Positions 6,067-56,242 of a stretch of DNA of 64,000 nt are shown one piece after another. Position 1 is the stretch's first letter; each line of letters starts with the position of its first letter. A program made the position numbers and the translations under genes. The notes under the pieces are model-generated. The model saw only the letters and a list, made by a program, of their open reading frames with translations, had not been told where the DNA came from and made no database searches. The stretch is from Senegalia massiliensis (GTDB lineage: Bacteria; Bacillota; Clostridia; Tissierellales; SIT17), in contig NZ_QXXA01000001.1 in assembly GCF_009911265.1 (NCBI RefSeq), positions 62,001 through 126,000 on the forward strand, read 5' to 3'.

Positions 6067-6106
6067 TAAAATAAACAGCTAGTAATATTACTAGCTGTTT
6101 ATTTTA
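6067..6106. terminator. Bidirectional terminator, 40-base perfect palindrome
   Basis: A perfect inverted repeat centred at 6086/6087 has GC-containing arms (AACAGCTAGTAATATTACTA core) flanked by A and T runs. It covers the last codons and stop of the minus-strand FrnE-like gene and closes the plus-strand degV unit. Confidence 0.85.
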
Positions 6107-6690
6107 TCAAATATTTTTCTGAAATAATCTAGAGGTTGTGTACCTATTACAACCTTCTCGTCATTTATTATAAAAGTAGGAATAGTATCAATATTTTTTT
6201 TAGCTGTTTCTTTTTTATACTCTTTAAGTTTTTCTTCATATTTTATACTATCTATTGCATTGTATACATCTTGTTTTTTTAATCCTACATCTTCTCCAAG
6301 TATTGCTAAAACTTCTTTATCATAAATATTTTCACCTTCTCTAAAATTACTTTCATATACCCTTTTATGAAAATTTTTAAATTTGTTAGAAATCTTAGCC
6401 CATTCAGAAACTTTAAATGCATTATGTGAGTTAGAAGTAAATTCTAAATCATAAATTTCTATATCTACTGTATTTGCCTTTCTTTCTATTTCTGTTTTCA
6501 TTTCTGCTAATTTTTCTTGACTAAATTTATTCTTAAGAGATTCTCCCTCTTTGGGAGTATCAGGATTTAATTCATAAGGTATCCATATATCATTGATTGG
6601 ATATTCTTCTTTTAATTTTTCGACTATACCTAAGCCTATATAACAAAATGGTCAAACATAATCATAATAAATCTTCAATTCTATATTCAC
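6091..6690 (-). CDS. DsbA/FrnE-family oxidoreductase, probable selenoprotein (UPFC)
   Basis: Reading through a TGA at 6654-6652 gives a 199-residue protein starting at GTG (6690-6688) after a GGAGAGG ribosome-binding site. The N-terminus reads IYYDYV-U-PFCYIG, so the TGA (codon 13) sits exactly at the first cysteine of the CPFC thioredoxin-fold active site. The rest matches the FrnE/2-hydroxychromene isomerase-like DsbA family: PYELNPDTPKEG, TSNSHNAFKVSEWA, YESNFREGENIYDKEVLAIL, and the cis-proline segment TIPTFIINDEKVVIGTQP. The organism clearly decodes UGA as selenocysteine (grdA and grdB below). A cytosolic thiol/selenol-disulfide oxidoreductase is inferred. A SECIS hairpin behind the TGA is weak by eye (UAUA stem with an 8-base loop). 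Without read-through only residues 64-199 would be called, lacking the active site. Confidence 0.85.
6652..6654 (-). other. Putative selenocysteine codon (UGA, residue 13)
   Basis: The in-frame TGA replaces the first Cys of the CPFC redox motif, the classic position for selenocysteine. The frame stays open and homologous on both sides. Confidence 0.8.
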
Positions 6691-6801
6691 GATATCCTCT
6701 CCTTTTATTCTTTAATAATATTTTACCCCTGTGAATATGTATATAATCAAATTAAAACTTAATTATATAAGGTATATAAATAAAGATAAAGAGTAATTTA
6801 T

Positions 6802-14682: not shown

Positions 14683-14722
14683 TAGTGTTTCCTTGGTCCC
14701 ACTAATTAAAAAACAAGGAGGG
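14683..14722 (+). ncRNA. preQ1-I riboswitch
   Basis: TAGTG (14683-14687) pairs with CACTA (14700-14704). The loop contains CCTTG, which is the exact complement of CAAGG (14714-14718) in the A-rich tail (TTAAAAAACAAGG), giving the H-type pseudoknot of preQ1-I riboswitches. The pseudoknot covers the AAGGAGGG ribosome-binding site of the next gene, so ligand binding should block translation. The layout closely resembles the Thermoanaerobacter tengcongensis aptamer. The downstream QueT gene is the expected target. Confidence 0.87.
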
Positions 14723-15316: not shown

Positions 15317-16585
15317 GTGATTTTAATTATTAAAATAAAAAAAATATTAATTATGTTAATTGTCATGATTTTAGCTTCACAAATTTATATAGATATATTT
15401 TTTTCTAACTTTAGATTTTCTTTTGGGGCTATAATATTACCTGTAATTATATATAAGTATAGAGATATGAGAGTTTATTATATTGGATTTATAAGTGGTA
15501 TAGCTTTATACATACAAAGAATTATAGTCTACTCATTTGGTAAAAGTAGTTTTTTAGAAAACGTTTTTTTATTTTGGCCTGAAGTTATTTTTTATACTAT
15601 ATATGGATTATGTTTTGTTTACGTAGTTAATAAAAATAAAAATATGAAAATACATAATTTATTTTTATCTCTAATTTTGATAGATTTTTTGTCAAATATA
15701 ACTGAAATATTTATACTTACAAGTATAAGTGAAAATATTAATTATATTGAAGTAATAAAGTTATTAATTATAGTTGCTATAGTAAGGTCAAGTATTTCAG
15801 CTGTTTTCATAACAGGTTTAAAATACTATAACATGTTATTAATGAGAGAGGAACATGAGAAAAGATATAGAGATTTAGTTTGGATGTCATCTAAGTTAAA
15901 AACACAAGTTTATTGGATGGAAAAAAATATGATTTATATAGAAAATGTTATGGAAGATGCATATAATTTATTTGAAAATATAAAAGAAAGAAAAAATAGA
16001 GAGTTTTGGCAAAATAATTCACTTGATATAGCAAAAAATGTACATGAAATAAAAAAAGAATATGCACTAGTATTAGAAGGAATTGAAGATGTGGTAAAAG
16101 TTAATGTTTCAAAAATTGGAATGAGTTTTAAAGAAATTATATTAATACTTGAAGATAGTTTATATAGAATGATTAAAAATAGGAATAAGGTCATCGATCT
16201 AAATTTCTCTGAATACGAAAACTTTTATACACATAAGCACTATGAATTAATTTCTATATTTAGAAATATATTAACAAATAGTATTGAATCTATGGATAAA
16301 GGTAGAATAGAATTAATGCATAGTAAAAATGAAAATAGTCATATATTTATAATTAAGGATAATGGAAATGGTATAAAACAAGAATATATTAAGAATATTT
16401 TTAAAGCAGGCTTTTCTACAAAAATTAATTATGAAACTGGAAATATCTCAAGAGGTTTAGGGTTAAATTTAGTTAAAAAATTAGTAGAACAAGATTTTAA
16501 TGGTAAAATATCTGTATTTTCAATAGAAAATCTAGGTACTAATTTTACTATTTCAATACCAATAAATTATTTAGAGGGGGAATAA
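15317..16585 (+). CDS. GlnK-like sensor histidine kinase
   Basis: The product (up to 422 residues) has an N-terminal membrane domain of about five helices (to ~165), a helical dimerisation part with a likely phospho-acceptor His in IAKNVHEIKKEY, and a C-terminal HATPase domain with N box (NILTNSIESM), G1 (DNGNGI) and G2 (SRGLGLNL). Gene order kinase, YcbB-domain regulator, Na+/amino-acid symporter matches Bacillus glnK-glnL-glnT, which controls glutamine use. The start is unclear: the GTG at 15317 lies inside the GAGGTGA ribosome-binding site, so translation may begin at an unusual ATT (15326 or 15329) or at ATG 15353. Confidence 0.82.
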   Translation: MILIIKIKKILIMLIVMILASQIYIDIFFSNFRFSFGAIILPVIIYKYRDMRVYYIGFISGIALYIQRIIVYSFGKSSFLENVFLFWPEVIFYTIYGLCFVYVVNKNKNMKIHNLFLSLILIDFLSNITEIFILTSISENINYIEVIKLLIIVAIVRSSISAVFITGLKYYNMLLMREEHEKRYRDLVWMSSKLKTQVYWMEKNMIYIENVMEDAYNLFENIKERKNREFWQNNSLDIAKNVHEIKKEYALVLEGIEDVVKVNVSKIGMSFKEIILILEDSLYRMIKNRNKVIDLNFSEYENFYTHKHYELISIFRNILTNSIESMDKGRIELMHSKNENSHIFIIKDNGNGIKQEYIKNIFKAGFSTKINYETGNISRGLGLNLVKKLVEQDFNGKISVFSIENLGTNFTISIPINYLEGE

Positions 16586-16587
16586 TT

Positions 16588-17439
16588 GTGAATATATTTA
16601 TTGTAGAAGATGATATTAGCATTGTGGAAGTATTAAAGAAGATTATTTCTGATAGAAGTTTAGGAAATGTAATTGAATACTCTTTAAATGGTAAAGATGC
16701 TATAGAAAAAATAAAAGAATTTTTACCAGATATAGTACTTATAGATCTTTTTTTACCTTGACTTGATGGAATTTCTTTAGTTAAAGAAATAAAAGAGATA
16801 TATCCTGATATTCAATTTATTATGATATCTCAAGTAAACTCTAAAGATATGATAGCAAAAGCTTATAAAAATGGTATAGAATACTATGTTACTAAACCTA
16901 TAAATGCAATAGAAATTGAAACTATAATAAATAAAGTGAATACTAATATTGAACGAGAAAAAAAACTAGATAATATTAGACAATTAATAGGTGGGGCTAA
17001 TATAAAATCAAATAGAAAAGAAGATTATGAAATTTGCTTAAAAAAAGTATTATATAGATTGGGAATAATAGGTGAAGCAGGTTCAACTGACTTAATAATA
17101 ATTGTAGATAATATAATAAAAAATGGATTGAAAAATAAAAACTTTTCATTAAAGCAAATATGTAAGAAATATACTGATAATCCAAAAACCATGGAGCAAA
17201 GAATGAGAAGAGCTGCAAATGTTGCAATAGAGAATATTGCAAGTATTGGACTAGAAGATTTTATGAATGAAATATTTATGGACTATTCAAATAGTTTATT
17301 TAATTTTGAACAAATAAGAATTGAAATGAATTATTTAAAAGGGGTAACTTCCAAAAGAGGAAAAATAGATTTGAAAAAATTTTTATATGGGTTAGCATAT
17401 CATTGTGAAAAAATAAACACTGAATATTCTGAAAATTAA
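16588..17439 (+). CDS. GlnL-like (YcbB-domain) response regulator with in-frame UGA
   Basis: From GTG 16588 (after AGAGGGGGAA) through a TGA at 16759-16761 the frame gives 283 residues. The receiver domain (1-120) has acidic pocket E7-D8-D9, phospho-acceptor D53 in IVLIDLFLP, and SQVNSKDM and VTKPINA motifs. The C-terminal ~150 residues are a YcbB-type DNA-binding domain (KQICKKYTDNPKTMEQRMRR). The TGA is codon 58, where relatives commonly have Gly (D-x-x-x-P-G). Read-through as selenocysteine, a nonsense mutation (GGA to TGA) or a sequencing error are all possible. Sequence on both sides is undecayed, and kinase and symporter are intact. Initiation at ATG 16822 would give only a C-terminal fragment lacking D53. 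Confidence 0.75.
16759..16790 (+). promoter_or_regulatory. UGA codon with candidate SECIS hairpin
   Basis: Nine bases after the TGA, ATTTCTTT (16771-16778) pairs perfectly with AAAGAAAT (16783-16790) around loop AGTT. The loop G is preceded by 18 bases after the UGA, the same spacing as the loop G of the hairpin behind the grdB UGA. Only one G-C pair stabilises it, so chance in AT-rich coding DNA is a real alternative. Confidence 0.35.
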
Positions 17440-17450
17440 CCGTTACTATT

Positions 17451-17467
17451 TGAAACTTCATGAAACT
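17451..17467 (+). promoter_or_regulatory. Direct repeat TGAAACT-N3-TGAAACT, candidate GlnL-type operator
   Basis: Two exact TGAAACT heptamers start 10 bases apart in the gap between the regulator and the symporter it should control. The B. subtilis GlnL site is also a 10-base-period direct repeat (TTTTGT with a 4-base gap). Sequence differs, so binding is inferred from position and periodicity only. Confidence 0.45.
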
Positions 17468-17540: not shown

Positions 17541-18944
17541 ATGGAGAGTATTAATGAATTTTTAAGTCGAATTTCTGATTATGTCTGGGGACCGGTAACT
17601 ATTGTATTATTAGTAGGAACAGGACTATTTCTTAGTTTATTAACTAAATTTATTCAGTTTAGAAAACTATCTTTATCGTTGAAATTATTATTTTCTAAGG
17701 AGCATTCTGATGATGGTGATATAACACCATTTCAAGCTTTAATGACATCTCTTGCAGCTACTATAGGAACTGGTAATATTGCTGGAGTTGCTTCTGCAAT
17801 AGTAGCAGGAGGTCCTGGTGCTGTATTTTGGATGTGGGTAAGTGCGGCTTTTGGTGGAGCATCAAAATATGGTGAAGCATTGCTTTCTATAAAATATAGA
17901 ATCACAAATGAAGAAGGAGAGAAATCTGGTGGTCCTATGTTTTATATTGAAAGAGGTATGAAAGAACAATATGGAAGAAATTTCAAATGGCTTGGGTTAG
18001 CGTTTGCATTATTTGGTTTTCTTGCCTCCTTTGGAATTGGAAATATGGTTCAAGCAAATTCTGTTTCTAGAGCAATAAATGAATCTTTTGGTGTTAATGT
18101 ATGGATTACTGGAATAGTAATGGCTTTATTAGTTGGAGCTGTTATAATAGGTGGAATTAAAAATATTGGTAAAGTAACAGATAAAGTGGTTCCTATTATG
18201 GCAATAAGCTATATAGTTGGAGCATTAATTGTACTATTTATGAATATGAGTTCTATTCCAACAGCTTTTAGTATGATATTTTCTAATGCTTTTACTGGTA
18301 AGGCAGTAGGTGGAGGAGTTTTAGGGACAGTTGTTAGATTTGGAGTAGCAAGAGGAGTATTTTCAAATGAAGCAGGACTTGGAAGTGCAGCGATTGCTCA
18401 TGCAGCCTCTACTAATGATAAACCTGTAATTCAAGGGCTTATAGGGTCTTTAGGTTCAGTTATAGATACCCTTATAATATGCACTATGACAGCTTTAGTT
18501 ATATTAGTATCAGGTATAGTTAATATAGGAACTGATGGAGTTATGTTTATAGAGGAAAGCTATAGGGGTGCTGCTCTTACTACTTATGCATTTGATATTG
18601 GATTACCTGTTATAGGAGGATATATTGTTTCTTTGGGGTTAATATTCTTTTCATTTTCAACAATACTAGGATGGTATTATTACGGCTCTAAATGCTTAGA
18701 GTATATATTTGGAGTAAAGGCAATTTCTTATTATAAAATAATATGGGTAATATTATGTCTTTCAGGTGCTGTATTTCCAATTCAAATAGTATGGACATTC
18801 TCTGATATATTTAATGGATTGATGGCAATACCGAATTTGATAGCTCTAGTTGCATTGAGTCCAATAATATTTAAAATGACAAAAGAATTCAATATGGAAC
18901 GATTAAAAAACAAATTAAAAAATGATGAAGTAAAATCAGCATAA
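17541..18944 (+). CDS. Sodium:amino-acid symporter, AGCS family
   Basis: The 467 residues match AGCS (AlsT/GlnT/AgcS) transporters: about 11 transmembrane segments, the signature TSLAATIGTGNIAGVASAI near residue 70, GGPGAVFWMWVSAAFGGASK, and RGVFSNEAGLGSAAIAHAAS near residue 275. These import alanine, glycine or glutamine with Na+. The upstream GlnK/GlnL-like pair suggests glutamine (GlnT), and a glutaminase is encoded 17 kb downstream. Substrate cannot be fixed from sequence alone. A GGAGGG ribosome-binding site precedes the ATG. Confidence 0.94.
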   Translation: MESINEFLSRISDYVWGPVTIVLLVGTGLFLSLLTKFIQFRKLSLSLKLLFSKEHSDDGDITPFQALMTSLAATIGTGNIAGVASAIVAGGPGAVFWMWVSAAFGGASKYGEALLSIKYRITNEEGEKSGGPMFYIERGMKEQYGRNFKWLGLAFALFGFLASFGIGNMVQANSVSRAINESFGVNVWITGIVMALLVGAVIIGGIKNIGKVTDKVVPIMAISYIVGALIVLFMNMSSIPTAFSMIFSNAFTGKAVGGGVLGTVVRFGVARGVFSNEAGLGSAAIAHAASTNDKPVIQGLIGSLGSVIDTLIICTMTALVILVSGIVNIGTDGVMFIEESYRGAALTTYAFDIGLPVIGGYIVSLGLIFFSFSTILGWYYYGSKCLEYIFGVKAISYYKIIWVILCLSGAVFPIQIVWTFSDIFNGLMAIPNLIALVALSPIIFKMTKEFNMERLKNKLKNDEVKSA

Positions 18945-54422: not shown

Positions 54423-54899
54423 ATGAGCTTATATGATGGCAAAAAAGTTGTTATTATAGGGGACAGAGATGGAATTCCTGGTCCTGCTATGGAAGAATGC
54501 CTAAAATCAACAGAAGCGGAAGTTGTGTTCTCATCAACTGAGTGTTTTGTCTGAACTGCCGCAGGAGCAATGGACTTAGAAAATCAAAAGAGGGTTAAAG
54601 ATATTACTGAAAAACACGGTGCAGAAAATGTAATCGTAGTTTTAGGTGCTGCTGAAGCAGAAGCTGCAGGATTAGCTGCAGAAACTGTAACAGCTGGAGA
54701 CCCTACATTTGCTGGTCCATTAGCAGGAGTCCAGTTAGGACTTAGAGTATATCATGCTGTAGAACCACAATTCAAAAATGAAGTAGATGAAGAAGCATAT
54801 GAAGACCAAATTGGTATGATGGAAATGGTTCTTGAAGTAGATGAAATAATTGAAGAAATGAAAGATATAAGAGAAGAATTTTGTAAATTTGATGACTAA
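54423..54899 (+). CDS. grdA: Glycine reductase selenoprotein A, GrdA
   Basis: Reading through TGA at 54552-54554 gives 158 residues with Sec at position 44 in STECFVUTAAGAM, identical in position and context to known GrdA. GrdA carries the carboxymethyl group from protein B on its selenol and hands a selenocysteine-bound ketene equivalent to protein C, which releases acetyl phosphate; the selenenyl-sulfide is then reduced by thioredoxin. The start after AGAAAGGATG is clear. Automatic calling would find only the part after the UGA. Confidence 0.97.
54552..54554 (+). other. Selenocysteine codon in grdA (residue 44)
   Basis: In-frame TGA in the invariant GrdA motif CFVUTAAGAM. Sec44 is the carboxymethyl-accepting residue in characterised proteins. 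Confidence 0.97.
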
Positions 54900-54934: not shown

Positions 54935-56242
54935 ATGAGTAAATTAAAAGTAGTTCATTACATTAACCAGTTTTTTGCTGGTATTGGTGGTGAAGAAAAA
55001 GCAGATTATAAACCAGAAGTAAGAGAAGAAGTAGTAGGTCCTGGTATGGAACTTGCTAAAAGATTAGGTGATGAAGCTGAAATAGTAGCTACTATAATAT
55101 GTGGTGACTCATATTTCAATGAAAATTTAGAGGAAGCAAAGTCTGAAGTTTTAGATATGGTAAAGAAGTATGATCCAGATTTATTCGTTGCAGGCCCTGC
55201 TTTTAATGCAGGTAGATATGGAGTAGCATGTGGTACTATAACTGCTGCTGTGAAAGAAAACTTAAATATTCCTGTATTAACTGGAATGTATGAAGAAAAC
55301 CCTGGTGCAGATATGTTTAAAAAGGATGTATATATAGTAAAAACTAAAAATAGTGCAGCAGGTATGAGAAAAGCAATCAAGACAATGGTGCCTTTAGCTT
55401 TAAAACTTGCTAAAGGAGAAGAAATAGGTTCTCCAAAAGAAGAAGGCTATATGCCAAGAGGTATTAGGAGAAATTATTTTGCTGATGAAAGAGGATCAAA
55501 GAGAGCTGTAGATATGCTCATCAAGAAGTTAAATAATAAAGAATTTGAAACAGAATATCCTATGCCTAGTTTTGATAGAGTAGATCCAAACCCAGCAGTT
55601 AAGGATATAACTAAGGCTAAAATAGCATTAGTTACTTCTGGAGGTATAGTACCAAAAGGAAATCCTGATCATATAGAATCATCAAGTGCATCAAAGTACG
55701 GTAAATATGATATAGATGGTGTACAAGACTTAACATCTGAAACATATGAAACTGCACATGGTGGGTATGATCCTGTTTATGCTAACGAAGATTCAGATAG
55801 AGTACTTCCAGTAGATGTATTGAGAGATTTAGAAAAAGAAGGAAAAATCGGAGAACTTCATAGATATTTCTATACAACTACAGGTAACGGTACAGCGGTT
55901 GCAAGCGCTAAAGCCTTTGCAGAAGAATTTTCAAAAGAACTTTTAGCTGATGGTGTAGATGCTGTTATATTAACTTCTACCTGAGGCACCTGTACACGTT
56001 GCGGTGCAACAATGGTAAAAGAAATTGAAAGAGCAGGACTACCAGTGGTTCATATATGTACAGTAGTTCCTATTTCATTAACAGTTGGAGCAAATAGAAT
56101 TGTTCCTGCAGTTGCAATACCTCATCCACTTGGAAATCCAAGTTTAGAAAGCAATGATGAGAAAGCAATTAGAAGAGATTTAGTTGAAAGATCATTAAAA
56201 GCTTTAGAAACTGAAGTAGATGGACAAAAAGTATTTGAATAA
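54935..56242 (+). CDS. grdB: Glycine reductase component B selenoprotein GrdB
   Basis: Through TGA at 55982-55984 the product is 435 residues with Sec at position 350 in TSTUGTCTRCGAT. It is the substrate-binding selenoprotein of protein B (with GrdE), where the Sec removes the carboxymethyl from the Schiff base. Features include TSGGIVPKGNPDH and the terminal VGANRIVPAVAIPHPLGNP. The start is preceded by GAGGGGGG. Without Sec decoding the gene would look split in two. Confidence 0.97.
55982..56010 (+). other. Selenocysteine codon of grdB (residue 350) and following hairpin
   Basis: TGA at 55982-55984. A hairpin GTTGC-GGT-GCAAC (55998-56010) lies downstream, with 18 bases between the UGA and the first loop G, and a GU in the loop as bacterial SECIS elements require. 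Hairpin role is inferred. Confidence 0.7.

Follow-up and report, generated by a model that had tools for sequence, protein, structure and literature searches.

An in-frame UGA conserved beside the phosphorylation site of a GlnL/YcbB-type response regulator: a candidate selenocysteine codon in Senegalia massiliensis

A response regulator gene of the glycine-fermenting bacterium Senegalia massiliensis contains a TGA codon close to its phosphorylation site, and the question is whether the gene encodes a selenoprotein or is a nonsense allele. The gene lies in a stretch of 64,000 nucleotides, called the window here. The question came from a sequence-only reading of this DNA, which described a GTG-started frame with receiver and YcbB domains, interrupted only by TGA at codon 58, five codons past D53. 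That description holds. The sole interruption of the frame at 16588-17439 is the TGA at bases 16759-16761, and once the UGA is read through the product matches the Pfam domains Response_reg (E 7.2e-22, residues 3-114) and then YcbB (E 1.9e-32, residues 152-269), both above the curated cut-off. A frameshift at the run of seven T bases just 5' of the UGA was rejected by reasoning, since the frame is identical on both sides and a single shift would lose the downstream half.

The features of the locus, in window coordinates, are as follows.

15317-16585, plus strand: sensor-kinase-like ORF with a HATPase_c domain, ending 2 bp before the GTG of the regulator; dN/dS 0.125
16588-17439, plus strand: GlnL/YcbB-type response regulator with one in-frame UGA, a GTG start, a TAA end, both domains and selection on both sides
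16744-16746, plus strand: codon 53, the phospho-acceptor Asp of the receiver, from its place in the receiver match and its alignment with the D-x-x-x-P motif of relatives
16759-16761, plus strand: in-frame UGA, codon 58 (D53+5), proposed selenocysteine (Sec) codon; the same codon is UGA in the congener G001
16771-16790, plus strand: candidate SECIS element, a hairpin of 8 bp with the loop AGUU, identical in G001
17451-17467, plus strand: direct repeat TGAAACT-N3-TGAAACT upstream of the symporter gene, candidate regulator-binding box
17541-18944, plus strand: AGCS-type Na+:amino-acid symporter (Pfam Na_Ala_symp, NCBIfam TIGR00835 agcS), presumed target

The genus and family are represented in the collection by four genomes only, this one (G000) and its congeners G001, which is the nearest, G002 and G003. 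The neighbours of the regulator had been named as an intact GlnK-like kinase and an intact AGCS symporter; the symporter is indeed intact, and the ORF upstream has the HATPase_c domain. The order kinase-regulator-symporter is kept in G001 and G002 and is not present in the 20 kb of G003 examined. The direct repeat is kept at its 10-bp spacing in G001 and G002 as near copies with some changes, and its second copy lies 14 bp from TATACT in G000, G001 and G002. The repeat also overlaps the promoter region of the AGCS gene.

Alignment of homologues at codon 58 had been proposed as the way to tell Sec from mutation. In a search of 60 genomes the best match outside G000 is from G001, with 94% identity and UGA at the same codon, which speaks for Sec. 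The G002 regulator (63% identity) has Glu at codon 58, which is neutral. The best match in G003 has 45% identity and is without such a symporter in the 20 kb examined; it may not be an orthologue. Other homologues from this search show TAA or TAG inside the matched span. Across 30 aligned loci UGA is found at two, those of G000 and G001, and the remaining 28 have Gly (14), Glu (4), Asn (3), Thr (2), Lys (2), Asp (2) or Ala (1). Gly, expected to be common in relatives, is the commonest residue, and Cys is found in none of the 28.

The organism possesses tRNA-Sec, SelB and SelD. In all four genomes tRNA-Sec and SelB score above the cut-off and SelD is UGA-bearing. UGA is the rarest stop on contig C1 of G000, where it ends 17 of 192 long ORFs, compared with 124 for TAA and 51 for TAG.

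The hairpin had also been noticed from the sequence, as an exact 8-bp stem with loop AGTT nine bases past the UGA and at the same distance as in grdB. This is correct. The sequence ATTTCTTT-AGTT-AAAGAAAT forms a perfect 8-bp stem, the loop begins 17 nt past the UGA, and its G is reached after 18 nt, as in the grdB hairpin of the window. The limits for SECIS elements given in PMC13188914 are a loop of 3-9, a stem of 4-16, a G in the first two loop positions, a distance of 16-37 nt and an MFE <= -7.5; the geometry of the hairpin is within them in G000 and G001. The energy reaches -7.5 only when 72-74 nt are folded, with further structure included. Folded alone, the hairpin has -3.4 kcal/mol, and when 42-45 nt of the G000 sequence are folded another structure is preferred. 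The published limits are also passed by 203 of 2000 sense codons (10%), 42 of them with a stem of at least 7 bp, and by two of 17 terminal TGA stops. An equally strong hairpin is found within 16-37 nt of 274 of 4302 codons and in 2400 of 20,000 synonymous recodings. The published criteria alone were therefore rejected as proof, being too permissive in DNA of 27% GC; by them the hairpin is unremarkable.

A stricter geometry was taken from the hairpins of GPx, SelD and GrdB of the same genome, consisting of a distance of 16-18 nt, a loop of 3-4 nt with a G, and a perfect stem of at least 5 bp with -3.2 kcal/mol or lower. The regulator passes, as do 199 of 66,051 sense codons (0.3%); since these limits were chosen with the elements already in view, the ratio overstates how much the result weighs. 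Half of the eight selenoprotein-type genes of the genome have this geometry. GrdA, the DsbA-like protein, the HMA ATPase and the HesB-like protein fail it; in the ATPase and HesB-like genes a strong hairpin lies at 24-25 nt instead.

The search for other in-frame UGAs covered 1.02 Mb, a third of the G000 genome (C1, C4, the first 280 kb of C5 and the first 120 kb of C10). With open frames required on both sides, 75 TGAs were retained, and 43 of these align to TGA in G001 (1.08 Mb compared). All 75 were sorted manually by eye, which is not an annotation; most are gene ends before a gene in the same frame, leader sequence or non-coding. The UGAs recognised as lying within one gene and common to G000 and G001 are that of the regulator and those of eight selenoprotein-type genes, namely GrdA, two GrdB, SelD, GPx, a DsbA-like protein, a HesB-like protein and an HMA-domain copper ATPase. 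Scans against protein families agree for GPx, the DsbA-like protein, the HesB-like protein and the ATPase. The HMA domain of the ATPase has a match to NF041115, metal-binding (seleno)protein; the HesB-like protein is above the Pfam cut-offs and below those of NCBIfam except TIGR00049.

The DsbA-like gene (Pfam PF01323; window 6094-6705, minus strand) is selenoprotein-type, with a U-P-F-C active site and a UGA at 6654 that is shared with G001. In the window the UGA of grdA is at 54552 and that of grdB (54935-56242) at 55982, and a second grdB has its UGA at G000:C4:358981. The copper-type P-ATPase (L210:7633-10041 of G000:C5, minus strand) has Sec in its first HMA motif (GMTUASC), a UGA shared with G001 and a strong hairpin 24 nt past it. 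The HesB/IscA-like gene (L210:11970-12275 of G000:C5, minus strand) has a U-G-G-P motif, is shared with G001 and has its hairpin 25 nt past the UGA. The glutathione peroxidase gene with a UGA is at L131:4058-4546 (G000:C1, minus strand); in the comparison of G000 with G001, a G-U pair in the stem of its hairpin becomes A-U and is still paired.

An Xre-type regulator (L129:9999-10730, plus strand) has a TGA at codon 38 (G000:C1:10110), a position at which Trp is usual in the family. Nothing in the three congeners matches it at E 1e-20, its best relative (65%) being from another family, and it has no such hairpin and fails the strict geometry. As it is absent from the congeners and has no hairpin, it was rejected as a second recoded regulator and is taken as ordinary decay; it looks like a decaying acquired gene.

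The main rival of Sec, and a real one, is leaky termination, in which near-cognate tRNA-Trp would decode UGA-C with an efficiency of a few per cent; a low dose would suffice and the stop would persist. A UGA followed by C is a leaky context. In-frame stops with dN/dS < 1 are reported to be widespread in bacteria (PMC7918605), and the same paper cites 6% UGA readthrough in wild-type Bacillus subtilis. Leakiness of the ordinary kind does not predict the hairpin, however, and a single base change would give a better sense codon, yet the UGA is kept in both species. PMC13092985 gives a 4-bp anticodon stem and A9C or G24A as features of UGA-reading tRNA-Trp; these are absent in G000 and G001, which have the same ordinary tRNA-Trp with a 5-bp anticodon stem, A9 and G24. 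A search for other tRNAs with a UCA anticodon, by pattern and by ARAGORN on selected loci (the pattern would miss unusual tRNA shapes), found none in the four genomes, nine of the ten pattern matches being without a tRNA and one being tRNA-Met. The other shared one-gene UGAs that were recognised are all of selenoprotein type. We consider Trp insertion a possible explanation of the conserved UGA, although a rather unlikely one.

The regulators of G000 and G001 differ at 46 of 849 bases, giving 31 synonymous and 15 non-synonymous codon differences with no indels or further stops. The dN/dS is 0.102 for the whole gene, 0.115 for codons 1-57 and 0.099 for codons 59-283. The values for the neighbours are 0.053 for codY, 0.122 for the ORF at 14693, 0.125 for the kinase (taken from codon 15 on), 0.072 for the symporter and 0.077 for mnmA, the names codY and mnmA having been assigned by eye and not from Pfam matches; this span of 0.053-0.125 brackets both halves of the regulator. 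Its dS of 0.218 is near those of the kinase, symporter and mnmA (0.203-0.238) and exceeds those of codY (0.151) and the ORF at 14693 (0.108). Codons 59-78 alone have one synonymous and one non-synonymous change, too few to judge, and the identical run of 17 codons round the UGA is not significant as a sign of an RNA element (p 0.20). Judged from these sequences, the UGA is not a private nonsense allele and purifying selection is acting on both sides of it; a conserved UGA with selected coding sequence downstream is found in one other species, G001. Provided that selection reflects use, the UGA is being read through.

It is very improbable that selection instead maintains two products, a 57-residue piece and an internally started downstream piece, acting together or alone. 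An in-frame ATG at 16822 would give the latter 205 aa, but by eye it has no obvious ribosome-binding site before it, the break would lie within the receiver fold, and codons 1-57 are under as much constraint as the remainder. A nonsense allele, in a gene that was already inactive or decaying in the common ancestor of the two species, is very improbable. The genome does carry such alleles, for example the lone UGA-interrupted Xre-type regulator. The substitution pattern of the GlnL-type gene, its neighbour-like dN/dS on both sides and the conserved repeats upstream of the target gene all speak against this, and a dead gene does not explain the differences between the two species, since these arose after the species split, when by parsimony the UGA was already present. 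Signs of a pseudogene (relaxed selection, more stops, indels) are absent between G000 and G001. A sequencing or assembly error is extremely improbable, as the same TGA is present in two assemblies that differ at 46 of the 849 bases of the gene.

UGA-bearing receivers were also sought elsewhere with the motif D-x-x-x-P-UGA-x-D-G plus hydrophobic constraints, to which a UGA elsewhere in a receiver is invisible. In the order, two of 249 genomes match, G000 and G001. A scan of 84,980 species, which may leave out records very near this genome, gave 70 stretches, 16 of them receiver-like by an HMM of 30 GlnL receivers. Fourteen of the 16 are in records with further in-frame TGAs (Gracilibacteria 8, SR1 1, Patescibacteria 1, other bacteria 4) and one is in a Calothrix MAG with a single TGA. 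The match in a Eubacterium MAG was rejected, its upstream part not being a receiver. Leaving aside the records with many in-frame UGAs, the motif scan turned up no further convincing case.

We conclude that the UGA at codon 58 is probably read through, most likely as Sec, giving a full-length working GlnL-type regulator with Sec at D53+5. Of the two readings first put forward, a dead nonsense allele is largely excluded by the shared UGA and the selection on both halves, and the selenoprotein is the best supported, yet unproven. The kinase and regulator, 2 bp apart, are probably on one mRNA. SelB and Sec-tRNA would bind the hairpin 17 nt past the UGA and Sec would be inserted. The regulator, phosphorylated at D53, would then bind the repeats upstream of the AGCS symporter gene and control the symporter; a conserved repeat at this putative site is what a still-active regulator would be expected to leave.

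Sec at this position does not have to be catalytic, given that Gly, Glu, Asn, Asp, Thr, Lys and Ala all occur there in relatives. A catalytic role appears doubtful from the alignment, as position 58 is tolerant and a partner Cys is lacking; the regulator has three Cys, all of which are also present in the Glu-bearing G002, and none that is Sec-specific. The sequence-only reading had suggested redox control of glutamine uptake. This found no direct support, given the absence of Cys at codon 58 in the 28 relatives and the three Cys shared with G002.

A selenium or dose gate is a more interesting idea than a catalytic Sec, and is offered as an idea only. Tentatively, the regulator might be completed only when Sec-tRNA is plentiful, so that the symporter would be on only when the selenium-dependent glycine reductase can be built; Sec beside the phosphorylation site might also be redox-tuned. 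We think it unlikely that all of this applies. The genes grdA and grdB are about 38 kb from the regulator. Glycine reduction itself does not depend on such a gate, since grdB, found in all four genomes, is also present in the Glu-bearing G002.

If real, the regulator would represent a new selenoprotein family and might place an amino-acid transporter behind a selenium gate. A Sec-containing receiver would extend the selenoproteome into two-component signalling; the usual search for Cys/Sec pairs would miss it, as its relatives are without Cys at the site. If the gate is true, a stop codon would couple substrate uptake to trace-element supply, and selenium would be sensed by whether translation of the regulator is completed. 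The terms 'response regulator' and 'two-component' are absent from the main text of three selenoprotein reviews and surveys (PMC9312934, PMC12013277, PMC13188914), and no Sec-containing response regulator is named in the selenoprotein literature searched.

The system is comparable to GlnK-GlnL (YcbA-YcbB) of B. subtilis, which induces glnT on glutamine (PMC2743287). It is alike in its receiver and YcbB domain and its kinase partner, and here an AGCS-type transporter adjoins. It differs in the in-frame UGA at D+5.

GPx, SelD and GrdB of this genome share with the regulator a UGA common to both species, a hairpin 16-18 nt downstream with a G in a loop of 3-4 nt, and the Sec machinery. These are redox or selenium enzymes, whereas in the regulator Sec would be part of a signalling receiver, at a position where none of 28 relatives has Cys. 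Cys homologues aligned with Sec are usual for selenoproteins and are not universal; Gly-containing homologues are reported for one selenoprotein, FmdB (PMC4807772).

The receivers of Gracilibacteria and SR1 resemble that of the regulator in that their UGA occupies the same codon of the motif. In these bacteria UGA is reassigned to Gly (PMC13092985) and recurs within the gene. In the regulator described here, by contrast, UGA occurs once, and it still ends 17 of 192 ORFs of the contig.
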